NCBI GenBank assembly: GCA_016200005.1
Contig: JACQFP010000067.1
Span: 1 to 34,686, forward strand
DNA from: Verrucomicrobiota bacterium
Lineage (GTDB): Bacteria; Verrucomicrobiota; Verrucomicrobiia; Limisphaerales; PALSA-1396
Reading direction: 5' to 3'
Length of the DNA stretch: 34,686 nucleotides
The position numbers and the translations under genes were made by a program. A model generated the notes under the pieces. The model saw nothing but the letters and a program-made list of their open reading frames with translations. It made no database searches and had not been told where the DNA came from. Numbering within the stretch: position 1 is the first letter of the stretch; each line of letters begins with the position of its first letter. Shown here one piece after another: positions 11,510 through 34,686 of this stretch.

Positions 11510-12043
11510 TCAGTTCTCCACTTCTTCATGGACAATAATTTTCGGGTCCGCCAGAATGCGAACCAGGTCGAGCACCACAAGGCGTTCGGCCGTCACACCT
11601 TTCAAGTAGTCTTTGCGAATGCCCGTGAGCGTCGGCAGCGAAGGCTGCAAACTGTCCGCCGGAATCGAGCGCACGCCGACGATGACATCCGCCAGCAGGC
11701 CCAGTTCAAGGTCGTTGCCGCGAACGAGGATGATGCGGTGCAAGTCAGTCAAGCCCTTTTCGGGCAGGTCGAAAAACTTTTTGAGGTCGATCACTGGCAG
11801 GATATGGCCGCGCACGTTGACGATCCCCAGCACGAACGGCGGCGTGCAGGGCAGCGGCGTCAGATCCTTAAGCGGATACACCTCGCGCACGAAGCGCGTT
11901 TCCACGGCATAGCGTTCCTGCGCGAGGCGGAACTCCAGCACTTCGAGCAACGTTTCCGCGGCCGGAGCGGGCGGTGGGGTGCGTGCCAGCGCTGTCGCGC
12001 GGGCGCGGAGAATTTGTCTGGCGTCGTTGGCTTCGTTCTTCAT
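11510..12043 (-). CDS. cheW: CheW-like coupling protein 2
   Basis: A 177-residue protein with one CheW domain (about 33-170), recognisable by LEVLEFRLAQERYAVETRFVREV, GIVNVRGHILPVIDLKKFF and VVLDLVRIL. CheW links receptors to the CheA kinase in the signalling array. The start was set at ATG 12043, which overlaps the CheR stop (ATGA); codons further upstream are antisense or out-of-frame within cheR. The roughly 30-residue proline-rich N-terminus is longer than in E. coli CheW. The receptor gene begins 29 bases after its stop. Two CheW genes around a CheR-TPR gene match WspB and WspD. Confidence 0.94.
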   Translation of the reverse strand: MKNEANDARQILRARATALARTPPPAPAAETLLEVLEFRLAQERYAVETRFVREVYPLKDLTPLPCTPPFVLGIVNVRGHILPVIDLKKFFDLPEKGLTDLHRIILVRGNDLELGLLADVIVGVRSIPADSLQPSLPTLTGIRKDYLKGVTAERLVVLDLVRILADPKIIVHEEVEN

Positions 12044-13542
12044 GGCCTGGTCTCCATGGCAACAATTGAAGAGATGATTTCGGTGAGCCGGCCCGCCGTG
12101 AGGCCGTCGGATTCCGGCAGCAGATCGCCGGGCTGGCAGCGGCGCAGCAGACGCAACGCAGTGGTGAAATGTTTTTCCGCCCCGGCGATTTCGTCGCGGC
12201 TGCGCGCGAGGTTGGCCAATGCGAAATGTGCCAGCACAAAGTCGGGTTGCAGATAAAGCGCTCGTTGCAGCGAGCGGCGCGCCGGCTCGTGGTCGCCGAG
12301 TTCCTGCAAAACCACCGCGCGCAGATAGTGGCCGGACGGATCGAGCTTGTCGGCGGCCACCCACCGCTCACACCAGGTCAACGCGCCGGCCAGTCTGCCT
12401 TGATTGGCCAGCGCGCGCGCCAGCAAGGAAAACGCTTGCGGATCCGGCGCGGCGTTCGCAGTGAGCGAGGCCAGCAACGTGTCCGCTGCTTCCGCATAGC
12501 GGCCTTGTTGGTAAAACGATGTGGCCACGTCGAGCGGCGTCGGCGCTGACTCCGGCGACGCGGGTTCTTCCGGCGGCAAGTCAACCGGCGTTGGCGGTGT
12601 CCACGGCAAAGTTGCTTCAAACGCGGGCGCAACAAACTCCGCCGGTTCGCGGTGTGACGACAGCGTCCAAGGTTGTTCCGCGTGAACCTTCGCGTCGCTT
12701 TTTTGATAGAGGATGACGCCGGGAAAATTCACCAGCACGAACCGCGAGGACAACGCCTGCAAGCCTTCGCTCGGACTGACGGCCAGCCAGCCGTCATCCA
12801 CCAGCGCGCAGCGAAGATTGCGGACGACTTTCCGCGCCTGCGGTGGCGTGAAATACATCAATACGTTCCGGCAGAAGATCACGTCCATCGCATTGGTGTC
12901 GGTGGCCAGTGAGGGATATACGTCCTCCGCCAGATTCAAGTTCATGAAGGTCACCCGCTTTTTGATTTCCGGGAGGATCGCGTGGCGGCCATCGCTGGTG
13001 CGGTGGAAGTAACGTTCTTTGAACCACGCCGGCGACTCGCGGAACGACCATTCGCCATACACGCCGGCGGCGGCCTTTTGGAGAAAACGCTCGTTGATGT
13101 CGGTCGCCAGGATCGTCACGTTCCAGTCCGGCAGGTCGGGAATGGCCTGGTCGAGCTGGATCGCGAGGGAATACGGCTCTTCACCCGTGCAACAGGCCGC
13201 GCTCCAGAAGCGCAACCGCCGTTCGCCGTTTTGACGGGAGCGGATCAAATCTGGAAGCACGCTTTCGGCGAGAACCTCGAACGTGCGCTTCTCCCGAAAA
13301 AAATAAGTCTCGCCGATGGTGAGATGGCTCGCCAGCACTTGAAGTTGTGCTTTGGTCAGTGGCGATGACAACAGCCACTGCGCACACGCCGCGCCGCCGG
13401 CAAAACCCAATTCATCCGCCGCCCCGGCCAGCCCGCGCTGCAAATCCGCCCGCCGTTCGGGTGGAAAATGCAGTCCGATTCGCGCCGCTATGAATTCGCT
13501 TACTTGACCGCACAGAATTTCCGACACCGCGCTAGTTTCCAT
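12040..13542 (-). CDS. cheR: CheR methyltransferase with C-terminal TPR domain (WspC-like)
   Basis: A 500-residue protein. The N-terminal half is a CheR methyltransferase that uses S-adenosylmethionine to methylate receptor glutamates. It shows the TIGETYFFR motif (75-83), the AdoMet-binding segment FWSAACCTGEEPYSLAI (about 112-128), ATDIN (146-150) and CRNVLMYF. A Pro/Glu-rich linker (about 290-340) follows, and then TPR helices to about 490. The same CheR-plus-TPR build is seen in WspC. In the AdoMet loop it reads SAACCTG where most family members read SAGCSTG, but the fold motif is otherwise intact. It overlaps the first CheW gene by 11 bases and the second by 4. Confidence 0.95.
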   Translation of the reverse strand: METSAVSEILCGQVSEFIAARIGLHFPPERRADLQRGLAGAADELGFAGGAACAQWLLSSPLTKAQLQVLASHLTIGETYFFREKRTFEVLAESVLPDLIRSRQNGERRLRFWSAACCTGEEPYSLAIQLDQAIPDLPDWNVTILATDINERFLQKAAAGVYGEWSFRESPAWFKERYFHRTSDGRHAILPEIKKRVTFMNLNLAEDVYPSLATDTNAMDVIFCRNVLMYFTPPQARKVVRNLRCALVDDGWLAVSPSEGLQALSSRFVLVNFPGVILYQKSDAKVHAEQPWTLSSHREPAEFVAPAFEATLPWTPPTPVDLPPEEPASPESAPTPLDVATSFYQQGRYAEAADTLLASLTANAAPDPQAFSLLARALANQGRLAGALTWCERWVAADKLDPSGHYLRAVVLQELGDHEPARRSLQRALYLQPDFVLAHFALANLARSRDEIAGAEKHFTTALRLLRRCQPGDLLPESDGLTAGRLTEIISSIVAMETRP

Positions 13543-31842: not shown

Positions 31843-32772
31843 TTACTTGCTCAAGGCCGCCAGATAGCGTTCCGCATCAATGGCAGCGGCGCAACCCAGT
31901 CCCGCAGCGGTCACCGCCTGCCGATAGACGTGATCGGAACAATCACCCGCGACGAACACACCTTCGACATTCGTGGCGCTGCCCTGTTTCGGGAGGATGT
32001 AACCGTTTTCGTCCATGTCGATGATGCCTTTGAAGAGTTGCGTGTTGGGTACATGACCAATCGCCACAAACACTCCGGCGCAATCAAGCACGGTTTCAAC
32101 GTTGGTCTTCAGGTTCTTGAGGCGGACGCCGGTGACCTTGTCCTGTTTCACGTCCAACACTTCCGTCACCACCGAGTCCCAGATCGGTTTGACCTTGGGA
32201 TTGGAGAACGCGCGGTCAGCCATGATTTGCGACGCGCGGAGTTTGTCGCGCCGATGCACCAGATAAACGGCCGACGCGAACCGCGTCAGATAGATCGCTT
32301 CTTCGCACGCGGAATCGCCGCCGCCAACGACGACCAGCGGTTGATTGCGGAACATCGGCAACGCGCCGTCGCACGTCGCGCAATAGGTCACGCCCTTGCG
32401 CTCCAACAACGATTCGCTTTCAAGGCCGAGATGACGATGGCCGGCGCCGCTGGCGATGATGATCGTCTCGGCTTCCACCGCGTCGCCATCCACCGTCAGC
32501 ACGAAAGGCCGTTGCGATACATTCACCGCTTCGACCGTGCCGAACTTCACCTTCGCGCCGAACCGCTCCGCCTGTTTCTGCATGCGCACCATGAGTTCGT
32601 AACCATCGATGCCCTCCGGAAAGCCGGGATAGTTTTCGACGATGCTGGTCGTTGTCAACAGGCCGCCGGGCATCGTGCCGGTCAAGACGAGCGGGTGGAG
32701 GTTGGCGCGCGCGGTGTAAAGCGCGGCGGTGAGGCCGGCACAACCTGTGCCGATGATGACGACTTTTTCCAT
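31843..32772 (-). CDS. trxB: Thioredoxin reductase
   Basis: A 309-residue flavoprotein that uses NADPH to reduce thioredoxin in the cytoplasm. The FAD-binding motif is GTGCAGLTAALY (8-19), the redox-active cysteines are C131 and C134 in YCATCDG, the NADPH-binding motif is GGGDSACEEAIYL, and the C-terminal FAD motif is VFVAGDCSD. The length is typical. GTGCAG in the first motif replaces the more common GSGPAG. The start is ATG 32772 (MEKVVIIG). The upstream open frame has no homology. Confidence 0.96.
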   Translation of the reverse strand: MEKVVIIGTGCAGLTAALYTARANLHPLVLTGTMPGGLLTTTSIVENYPGFPEGIDGYELMVRMQKQAERFGAKVKFGTVEAVNVSQRPFVLTVDGDAVEAETIIIASGAGHRHLGLESESLLERKGVTYCATCDGALPMFRNQPLVVVGGGDSACEEAIYLTRFASAVYLVHRRDKLRASQIMADRAFSNPKVKPIWDSVVTEVLDVKQDKVTGVRLKNLKTNVETVLDCAGVFVAIGHVPNTQLFKGIIDMDENGYILPKQGSATNVEGVFVAGDCSDHVYRQAVTAAGLGCAAAIDAERYLAALSK

Positions 32773-33132
32773 AAGGACGCGAAAGGTAATTTCAACCCGT
32801 GACCTTGGCAAGCGCTGGTTGGAATGGGATGAGTGAAATTTAGTGCGATTCAATGTCGGCGTCACATCTCTTACGGAGCGCGACCGTGTGTGCGAAGCAC
32901 TAAGCCGCAGCGATGCAGTTGCGAGGCGGCCCGAGCGCGCCTTTTGCCCAAACGGGGCGACGTCAATCAGCCCACGGTTGGCCGCGCCAGCGGACTACCC
33001 TGGGAAAACCGTTCCCCGAATTTCATCAACCCTGAAGGGTTGATGATTTTTTGCCGGGTGACCCAGGGTAGCTCTGGTGGCCAGTCCGGCACGGACCTCG
33101 CAACCCGGAACTGATGGATGGAAATCTTATTC
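32773..33132. other. Gene-free spacer with a palindromic repeat
   Basis: No credible gene is seen. It contains the repeat at 32995-33071, and the composition shifts towards AT-rich on its right side where the HEPN/Cas2-like pair begins. Confidence 0.5.
32995..33071. repeat. Nested palindromic repeat (family F)
   Basis: The outer inverted repeat ctaccctggg / cccagggtag (32995-33004 with 33062-33071) encloses a perfect hairpin at 33024-33045 (CATCAACCCT, GA, AGGGTTGATG). The hairpin is followed by a T-rich run (gattttttgcc), so transcripts reading rightwards could end there. Confidence 0.75.
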
Positions 33133-33408
33133 CTATTTCATCCTTGCGAGAATCCAATCACTAACGTCTTTAGGCATACCCTCCCATGCTGCGGGAGGCG
33201 GACAAGTCCCAACAAAAATCTTATCTGATTTGTCAATGACTGCCCAAAGATGATCTCTGACTTGAACTGGGGTGTATTGAGTAAAAACCAAATAGGCAGA
33301 ACCGCCAAGACGTGCCCAATCGCCGAGTCCTTTGATTCTTTGGATCAAAGGCTCATAGGACTGACCAGGTTTGGTCAAATCGTAGGAAATTATTAGGACC
33401 TTTTTCAT
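33133..33408 (-). CDS. Small Cas2/SinR-like protein
   Basis: A 91-residue protein with the ferredoxin-like start VLIISYDLTKPGQSYEPLIQ and a second half SAYLVFTQYTPVQVRDHLWAVID / DKIFVGTCPPPAAW. This pattern resembles the small proteins annotated as SinR family, related in fold to Cas2. No CRISPR repeats or other cas genes are present. Its ATG follows directly on the HEPN gene's stop (TAAATG), so the two proteins are made together. By analogy the pair may be a toxin-antitoxin or defence module, with this protein as the possible partner or control element (inference). Nuclease activity is not shown. Confidence 0.75.
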   Translation of the reverse strand: MKKVLIISYDLTKPGQSYEPLIQRIKGLGDWARLGGSAYLVFTQYTPVQVRDHLWAVIDKSDKIFVGTCPPPAAWEGMPKDVSDWILARMK

Positions 33409-34146
33409 TTAGTTAGCCTTTGACAATTTATGAATTGTAGCAGCTATCTGACTCACTAACTTGATGCAATCTAGGGCATCCTTTTTACGGATGCTGCTTT
33501 CAACCGGTGGATTTTGCGATAAATCGTAATCTCCTTGATGAGCTATGGCGTGGCGACGTTCTGTAAACCGCGTCAGTTCTATTTTCAGATTGTCTTCGTT
33601 AATTGAGATACTAACTGCAACCTCGTGGAAGACGTCCGTAAAGCCAGCAATTTGCAAGCAGTCGGTAATATTTTTTACACCCTGAAATGATTTACGTTGA
33701 AACTCCTGCCAGAATGCTTTGTCAACTCGAGATAAAAGATCGTCCATGCGTGCGGCTTCAAGAAGATGATCATCTTTTATGAGGCGTTTGATTTCATTTG
33801 CAAGAGGTCCCGGCAGTGGTTTTTTCCTATCGACCAAAATCATCCGAATTCTTTCGAGACAACAGGTTCTCACATATGCATCAAGTGCCGATATCGCAAG
33901 GACAATTGCGGCCCGATGGGCATCAGCAAGATAAGCTTCAGGTCTGGACTGACTTTTTCCATGAGCGGTTTCGTGAATCTTTAGCAAATTATTTGCGCGA
34001 CCGATGCAGAGCTTGAAAACGGCGTGAGCGTCCAGCGTTCTTGCTGACGAAATTGCCTGTGGTGGGACTGGCGGAAGTTGAACAGGCTTTGCGGGAGCTC
34101 CAATCGCATTCTGAGAAACACCAGTCTGTTTCGTTTCCTTGCTCAT
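33409..34146 (-). CDS. Putative HEPN-domain protein
   Basis: A 245-residue protein. After a Pro-rich N-terminus (about 1-40) come alpha-helical segments. These include a conserved-looking helix, AAIVLAISALDAYVRTCCLERI (about 79-100), and near the end ERRHAIAHQGDYD. The latter gives the R-x4-H motif (R198 to H203) typical of catalytic HEPN ribonucleases. HEPN proteins often cut RNA as dimers in toxin-antitoxin and phage-defence systems. The gene is clearly richer in A and T than the flanks, suggesting transfer. ATG 34146 was chosen; an in-frame TTG lies 7 codons upstream. It abuts the Cas2/SinR-like gene. Confidence 0.7.
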   Translation of the reverse strand: MSKETKQTGVSQNAIGAPAKPVQLPPVPPQAISSARTLDAHAVFKLCIGRANNLLKIHETAHGKSQSRPEAYLADAHRAAIVLAISALDAYVRTCCLERIRMILVDRKKPLPGPLANEIKRLIKDDHLLEAARMDDLLSRVDKAFWQEFQRKSFQGVKNITDCLQIAGFTDVFHEVAVSISINEDNLKIELTRFTERRHAIAHQGDYDLSQNPPVESSIRKKDALDCIKLVSQIAATIHKLSKAN

Positions 34147-34174
34147 GGTTTTGCTTAACTTAATCAAACAATGC

Positions 34175-34400
34175 TTACAACTTCAAATCCGCATCCGTCA
34201 CCGCGCCGAGTGAGGCGCTCGTGACGTGGGCGGCGTATTTGGCGAGCACGCCGCGGGTGTAGCGGGGCGCGGGTTTCTTCCACGCTTTCTTGCGCTTCTT
34301 CAATTCGACGGATGGGACTTCGAGCGTCAACTCCCGCTCCTCCTCGTCGATCATGATCGAATCGCCGTTCGTCACGAGGGCAATCGCGCCGCGATGCGAC
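34175..34400 (-). pseudogene. ilvD: C-terminal remnant of dihydroxy-acid dehydratase
   Basis: The last 75 or so codons match the end of IlvD, an Fe-S enzyme of branched-chain amino acid synthesis. [20 protein letters not shown] and [21 protein letters not shown], ending in GAVTD, are visible. The roughly 500 residues carrying the cluster-binding cysteines and active site are missing. Upstream of about 34400 the frame turns into an unrelated Arg/Ser-rich sequence that is antisense or out of frame to the small gene at 34401-34613. The fragment is well conserved, so the truncation is probably recent. It lies 28 bases upstream of the HEPN gene. Confidence 0.8.
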
Positions 34401-34613
34401 TCATGCGGTCGCCGGTTCTGCACGGGCGAGGGCCGCTTCAAAGACACCGAACAGCTTCTCCTTCTGGCTGGCGACCGGTTTCTGAGGATCGAGCTTCTTT
34501 TCCAATACAAGTCCCGATCGAGGTTCGGTCAAACGCAATAACCTATCCCCCCCGACCAATTGAATCAGGTCAATCTGGATGTTCTTGCGGTCAACCATAG
34601 CCATATTTTTCAT
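34401..34613 (-). CDS. Small protein of unknown function
   Basis: A 70-residue protein ([12 protein letters not shown]...). [20 protein letters not shown] suggests two beta-strands, followed by a helix near [17 protein letters not shown] do not recognise a family. Its ATG overlaps the stop of the upstream gene (ATGA at 34610-34613), which supports real translation. ATG codons at residues 4 and 6 are alternative starts. The ilvD remnant begins at its stop codon. It is probably cytoplasmic, with no signal or membrane segment. Confidence 0.6.
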
Positions 34614-34686
34614 GCGACCAGCAGTCGTCCGCGCGGTTGCGGGATTTCTTTTCCGTCATCCTTCGCGGTCTTGATCCAGAATTTGA
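34610..34686 (-). CDS. C-terminal end of a gene cut by the window edge
   Basis: The last 24 codons, reading KFWIKTAKDDGKEIPQPRGR and ending LLVA, then TGA. The stop overlaps the ATG of the small gene at 34401-34613, and the charged, protein-like composition supports a real frame. The family cannot be told from this piece. Confidence 0.5.
   Translation of the reverse strand, partial: KFWIKTAKDDGKEIPQPRGRLLVA

Follow-up and report, generated by a model that had tools for sequence, protein, structure and literature searches.

A HEPN-family gene abutting a Cas2-like gene behind a partial ilvD copy in a Verrucomicrobiota genome: a possible CRISPR-free two-gene module

Both HEPN toxins and Cas2-fold nucleases occur widely in the conflict systems of prokaryotes, and CRISPR immunity has drawn on both, using the Cas2 fold for adaptation and the HEPN fold for RNA-cutting effectors. 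The described systems closest to the locus analyzed here contain one fold or the other. In HEPN/MNT (HepT-MntA, type VII), the gene of a HEPN ribonuclease toxin is adjacent to that of a minimal nucleotidyltransferase, and HEPN proteins of the RiboL-PSP/MAE_28990 type are encoded in restriction or ParB operons. VapD, a small Cas2-fold protein with a conserved aspartate and serine, lies beside the gene of VapX, VapY, or VapW; BPSL1038 belongs to a Cas2/VapD nuclease sub-family and occurs without CRISPR; and in GhoST (type V), a Cas2-like fold is found on the antitoxin side.

The window, i.e., the whole stretch of 34,686 nucleotides analyzed, carries near its right end a gene pair that combines the two folds:

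33409 to 34146, minus strand: P0002, a HEPN_RiboL-PSP family protein of 245 amino acids counted from its ATG (assigned by PF18735, phrog_13503, and the structure model)
34036 to 34146, minus strand: proline-rich N-terminal tail of P0002, residues 1-37, predicted to be disordered (pLDDT under 50)
33538 to 33555, minus strand: codons of R198-x4-H203, the predicted HEPN ribonuclease motif, invariant in the aligned HEPN sequences
33406 to 33411, minus strand: TAA-ATG junction of the HEPN and Cas2-like genes, read from the sequence
33133 to 33408, minus strand: P0001, a Cas2-like (SinR-like) protein of 91 amino acids (assigned by phrog_1090 and the fold of its model)
33379 to 33381, minus strand: codon of the Cas2/VapD-type aspartate D10, which does not vary in alignments of 13 and of 36 sequences
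33298 to 33300, minus strand: codon of S37, a conserved serine, likewise invariant in both alignments

The original prediction described two genes that abut as TAAATG and are AT-rich compared with their neighbors, and both points were confirmed; the absence of CRISPR that it noted holds for positions 32700-34686. Both ORFs lie on the minus strand with the TAA of one joined to the ATG of the other (GCTAACTAAATG), an operon-like abutment in which an AAAGG is found 8 nt 5' of the ATG of the second, Cas2-like, gene; an alternative upstream TTG at 34167 would extend P0002 to 252 amino acids. GC3 is 0.41 in the Cas2-like gene and 0.39 in the HEPN gene. Of the 17 other window ORFs computed, 16 have values of 0.66-0.84, and the remaining one (11510-12200) was set aside because the start used for it was out of frame; composition thus supports a foreign pair. 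Positions 32700-34686 contain no CRISPR-like repeat family. Downstream of the pair, there is an inverted repeat at 32995-33071; its bases 33000-33071 have no other match in the window's genome, and 35 bp of the repeat match the congener G589 at 89%. The window's genome yields one match each for the HEPN and the Cas2-like protein.

P0002 is identified from its sequence as a HEPN-family protein, and this identity was rested on the Pfam match and the motif first because the VIA Z scores of its HEPN rows are at a level where helical folds can mislead. P0002 scores 45 bits against HEPN_RiboL-PSP (PF18735; curated cut-off 28.4), covering model positions 19-188 of 191; the match to the MAE_28990 Pfam model is weak (16.4 bits), and phrog_13503 is matched at 3e-13. 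The combination by which HEPN superfamily ribonucleases are recognized, an R-x4-6-H motif on a HEPN fold, is present, and R197, R198, I201, H203, and D206 are invariant in 7/7 and in 9/9 aligned HEPN sequences (P0002 included). The HEPN identity and the R198-x4-H203 motif of the possible ribonuclease proposed earlier were borne out, with the residues correctly numbered. The AlphaFold model has a mean pLDDT of 75, and a tail similar to its low-scoring residues 1-37 is found in the HEPN protein of a second pair (genome G555, see below) and missing from most of the aligned unpaired viral relatives. On VIA realignment of the model, the best 12 rows were all HEPN-containing entries (Z 9.5-7.4), comprising sacsin, HepT-type toxins and their complexes, and Csm6; Foldseek gave no convincing match, its first HEPN row being at rank 29 with E 2.2. 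P0002 is a probable RNA-cutting toxin.

The locus is like HEPN/MNT in having two adjacent genes, one of them for a HEPN protein whose fold is that of the ribonuclease toxin (VIA Z 9.2-7.5), but the partner is the Cas2-fold P0001 instead of a minimal nucleotidyltransferase. The R-x4-H-x-Y sequence that we take to be the AMPylation motif of HEPN/MNT is absent from P0002, where H203 is followed by Q204 and G205 and there is no tyrosine. Proteins of the RiboL-PSP/MAE_28990 type share PF18735 with P0002, and the G555 copy is beside a type II restriction-modification system; the operon partner here, a Cas2-like gene, is what differs.

We read the pair as a horizontally acquired two-gene toxin or abortive-infection module composed of a HEPN ribonuclease effector and a Cas2-like regulator, a reading that we consider about evenly balanced between right and wrong. 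The HEPN protein would be a metal-independent endoribonuclease, dimeric when active, that uses R198/H203 to attack RNA of the cell or of a phage. Its dedicated regulator would be the Cas2-like protein, translated immediately afterwards from the shared message, which would keep the ribonuclease silent by binding the HEPN dimer or cutting the HEPN message; phage infection or loss of the locus would then remove the Cas2-like protein and release the ribonuclease. Ribonuclease activity, toxicity, direction of control, and trigger are all what we infer in this reading, which is supported by the invariant HEPN motif, the Cas2 fold with its D10 and S37, the abutment, the pair in G555, and the restriction-modification company.

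The description of P0001 as a Cas2-fold-like small protein is upheld both by family profiles and by structure comparison. P0001 matches phrog_1090 at E 5.5e-21 (positions 2-86 of 90); it matches no Pfam family itself at E 5, and of 13 aligned members of its family, five reach Pfam CRISPR_Cas2 with E values of 1 or lower, the best being 2.7e-5. Its model (pLDDT 91) has Cas2 topology, with strand 3-10 ending in D10, and so possesses the ferredoxin-like fold with an aspartate ending strand 1 that defines Cas2. The top VIA row was BPSL1038 (7vxr_B; Z 10.3, rmsd 2.4, 85 residues), followed mainly by Cas2 structures at Z 9.8-8.1, with the unrelated 2nyi (Z 8.6) as an outlier amid them. Foldseek also placed Cas2 structures first, with a best E of 5.8e-3 and nothing at E 0.001 or better. 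The invariant D10 and S37 correspond to the kinds of residue, aspartate and serine, that are conserved in the putative catalytic site of VapD according to the available part of PMC11980593, and P0001 is for that reason probably not a dead scaffold. BPSL1038, the best structural match, has the Cas2-type aspartate in common with P0001, but the two are only 12% identical, and the D-x26-S of P0001 is D-x20-SST in BPSL1038; the portions of the literature on BPSL1038 that are available mention no HEPN partner.

The roles might instead be reversed, P0001 being a VapD-type toxin and the HEPN protein a binding antitoxin or an RNA-binding regulator. The Cas2 fold is also that of VapD toxins, which depend on the same aspartate (PMC11980593, available part), D10 and S37 are invariant, and Cas2-like genes occur on phages and plasmids. 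We nevertheless judge this reading improbable, as the HEPN motif is intact and invariant, and the VapX, VapY, and VapW antitoxins are small SH3-fold or VapD-like proteins according to the same excerpt. The locus is like the Vap systems in that a small Cas2-fold protein is encoded beside another gene, but the partner of VapD is VapX, the SH3 protein VapY, or the VapD-like VapW, whereas here it is an all-helical HEPN protein; furthermore, Cas2 and BPSL1038 structures outrank VapD as Foldseek matches to P0001. Control of the type V kind, in which the Cas2-like nuclease would cut the HEPN mRNA as GhoS cuts ghoT mRNA, appears to us similarly improbable. GhoS (2llz), a type V antitoxin by a reference title in PMC12737573, is among the fold matches (Foldseek E 0.019, prob 0.98; VIA Z 6.8), and the catalytic residues of P0001 are kept, but the match is no better than those to unrelated ferredoxin folds at the same Z, and GhoS is not among the family-profile sequence matches to PDB chains. 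GhoST would share with our module a Cas2-like fold on the antitoxin side; it differs in that GhoT, which by a reference title acts on the membrane, is not a HEPN protein.

The recurrence of the pair was found only by a profile search over the order. A single-sequence HEPN search gave no close relatives in genome_contigs, plasmids, phages, or 193 other genomes of the phylum. The profile search detected this kind of HEPN in 8 of 320 genomes, and in two of the eight, the window's genome and G555, the next gene is Cas2-like; the neighborhood search proposed as a check was thus only partly rewarded, recovering the pair again beside a restriction-modification system but not in the other six genomes. 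The half of the proposed refutation by which the two genes would never occur together elsewhere is thereby answered, since they do. G555 belongs to another family of the order, and its pair is in the same order and on the same strand, with the genes 3 bp apart (0 bp in the window). The HEPN proteins are 51% identical and the Cas2-like proteins 56%, and the window and G555 members are sister rows in both trees (support 100/99 and 99/99, the Cas2-like tree resting on few columns and on a bootstrap that had not converged). In each gene, third codon positions differ most often (0.63 and 0.70, compared with 0.26 and 0.28 at second positions), dS not being computable; because the third-position values far exceed the second-position ones, purifying selection holds both proteins. 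The G555 HEPN scores 47.4 bits against PF18735, and no HEPN matching this profile lies near the second Cas2-like gene of that genome. The two genes have thus passed on together as a unit at least once and sit in different neighborhoods, but the pair is rare in the genomes searched.

That rarity counts against the module. The PF18735 search of 384 genomes of the class found 32 positive and returned 30 loci, and all 29 loci other than the window's are without a Cas2-like ORF within about 1.5 kb. When a two-sequence HEPN profile was run on 387 genomes of the phylum, it added one good match (in G882, at 1.6e-20, interrupted by two stops) and three weak ones, all four lacking a Cas2-like ORF in the sequence stretches examined. 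HEPN pairing was found at 0 of the 119 other distinct Cas2-like loci, and among 156 Cas2-like and 28 HEPN-profile loci, the two genes occur together in none but copies of the window's own locus. Neither gene has a match in the congener G589 (82% complete), viral contigs matching two short patterns yielded no HEPN or Cas2-like relative with the G555 sequences added, and the G555 HEPN as query found no relative in plasmids or phages. Since HEPN relatives are mostly without a Cas2-like gene, any antitoxin that they need does not have to be Cas2-like. A rival reading is a passenger pair, that is, two separate selfish or defense genes on one mobile segment with no mutual action: the two families are mostly seen apart, the Cas2-like relatives come from 70 plasmid and 30 phage records with changing neighbors and no fixed partner, and some HEPN relatives are found alone. 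We consider such a pair rather unlikely, because the two genes abut directly and have stayed adjacent in two families of the order, at distinct loci, while roughly half of their residues changed.

The company of the HEPN genes is in keeping with the module reading. The G555 pair adjoins a BglII-type endonuclease and, at the contig end, a piece of an N6_N4 methylase, both on the opposite strand. HEPN relatives without a Cas2-like gene adjoin type I restriction-modification genes or a type ISP restriction-modification protein, and others follow ParA or DUF262-like genes or are solitary phage cargo (the HsdM/HsdS of L186 and the DUF262 neighbors were assigned by eye). The same company is described for HEPN toxins and effectors by Anantharaman et al. 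(PMC3710099, available part).

The Cas2-like genes were surveyed over the 119 distinct loci by taking same-strand ORFs within 150 bp (n = 73, many of them doubtful), and the control drew one other gene from each locus, for the first 73 of the 119 on a shuffled list. Among the 25 of 41 families shown for the neighbors were Abi_alpha (two) and SAVED, PIN_8, AAA_15/AAA_21, DUF3800, and DUF2971 (one each), and among the 25 of 46 shown for the controls MqsR, RES, PIN_8, Fic, and HNH were present too. We dropped the notion of a general partnership between Cas2-like genes and HEPN or defense genes, as 73 neighbors against 73 controls gave no clear enrichment. Neighbors that vary and are not clearly richer in defense genes count against the module; the absence of a steady neighbor to serve as antitoxin for many Cas2-like relatives also counts against reversed roles.

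Several individual Cas2-like loci are worth recording. MtlR-like and Abi_2-like HEPN proteins, both below their family cut-offs, adjoin the Cas2-like genes of L055 and L007, and a clear AbiU2 HEPN is two genes (379 bp) from that of L126. At L154 (3292-4449), the Cas2-like gene is 9 bp upstream of the gene for a SAVED-domain protein that also matches HNH weakly, a sensor-effector type found in CBASS. The Cas2-like genes of L152, L158, and L167, from two phyla, have a common downstream partner family 6-9 bp away, whose members are hydrophobic over an N-terminal stretch and contain FGLMK[SN]NYE[AI]MQS; those of L003 and L005 have another common partner, apparently a two-TM protein. Proteins near the Cas2-like genes of L076 and L172 contain R-x4-H by eye with no Pfam match at E 1, and are possible divergent HEPN proteins.

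Upstream of the pair, the window carries a fragment of ilvD:

34175 to 34392, minus strand: partial ilvD 3'-end copy of 218 bp, ending 28 bp upstream of the HEPN start
34401 to 34613, minus strand: unrelated 70-amino acid ORF in place of the rest of ilvD, no Pfam match at E 0.1

Over its 218 bp, the ilvD piece has 88% identity to the terminal part of the intact G589 ilvD, and it matches ILV_EDD_C at positions 124-191 only. No intact ilvD was found in the window's assembly, where the only other ILV_EDD_C match is another IlvD/Edd-type gene. A DNA search with the piece, scored on at most eight candidates per genome, matched 51 of 97 genomes of the order, eight of them with at least two matches. 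Of the genomes with possible partial copies or repeats, six were inspected (G589, G555, G531, G469, G556, and G254); G222, G456, and G473, each with a second match, and further genomes with a single short match are outside this set. In G254, the additional match turned out to be a second whole ilvD and was not counted; in the other five, as in the window, 3' ends of 42-218 bp are found without the rest of the gene:

G589, contig C487, 10006 to 10047: partial ilvD copy
G555, contig C22, 784 to 908: partial ilvD copy
G531, contig C144, 804 to 871: partial ilvD copy
G469, contig C227: three partial ilvD copies
G556, contig C34: partial ilvD copy

A same-strand gene follows the partial ilvD in five of the six genomes that have one, the window's included, starting anywhere from a 1-2 base overlap to 271 bp later, and in the sixth the partial ilvD runs into the contig end. 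The genes that follow are the HEPN pair, an AlbA_2 protein, two NOV_C proteins, and an Mrr-type endonuclease. This suggests that the ilvD 3' end is an integration hot spot in the order, as inferred from a count made without a control gene. No ilvD integration site is named among the publications that surfaced. Integron cassettes are noted to carry HEPN domains and, frequently, Cas2-like proteins (PMC3710099, available part), but reading the flanks for attC sites or an integrase gave no support for a cassette origin. The fuller reading is that of a CRISPR-free module for defense or addiction, with a HEPN ribonuclease under the control of a Cas2-family protein, that was carried into an ilvD 3'-end hot spot; it is tentative and falls short of an even chance.

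Two further genes were seen at these sites. Between the intact and partial ilvD of G555 (L225, 784-1750) are a PemK/MazF toxin gene and an upstream small ORF. In G589 (L226, 8733-9542), the second gene after the ilvD copy, following a NOV_C gene, encodes a 270-amino acid protein with RNCIAH (R-x4-H by eye) and no Pfam match at E 0.01; it may represent another unlisted HEPN family.

The claim that the unit matches no named system stands for the pair, as PADLOC and NCBIfam gave no match at E 5 for either P0001 or P0002, but not for its halves, each of which belongs to a known family. The publications searched (PMC3710099, PMC11980593, PMC3506569, PMC10491678, PMC10714953, PMC12839542, PMC13092281, and PMC12737573, all in part, and with subscription literature thinly covered) contain in their available parts no description of a HEPN plus Cas2-like operon. 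The pair looks like a small, mobile toxin or antiviral unit, a HEPN-based conflict module with an unusual partner, in which each half is known and the combination is undescribed in that literature. If the module reading is true, the pair would provide a simple, testable case of mutual regulation between HEPN and Cas2-fold parts in a minimal two-gene unit, and a role for phrog_1090, the large unnamed SinR/Cas2-like family of phages, plasmids, and chromosomes. Confirmation of the ilvD 3'-end repeats would provide a place to seek further defense genes in the order.
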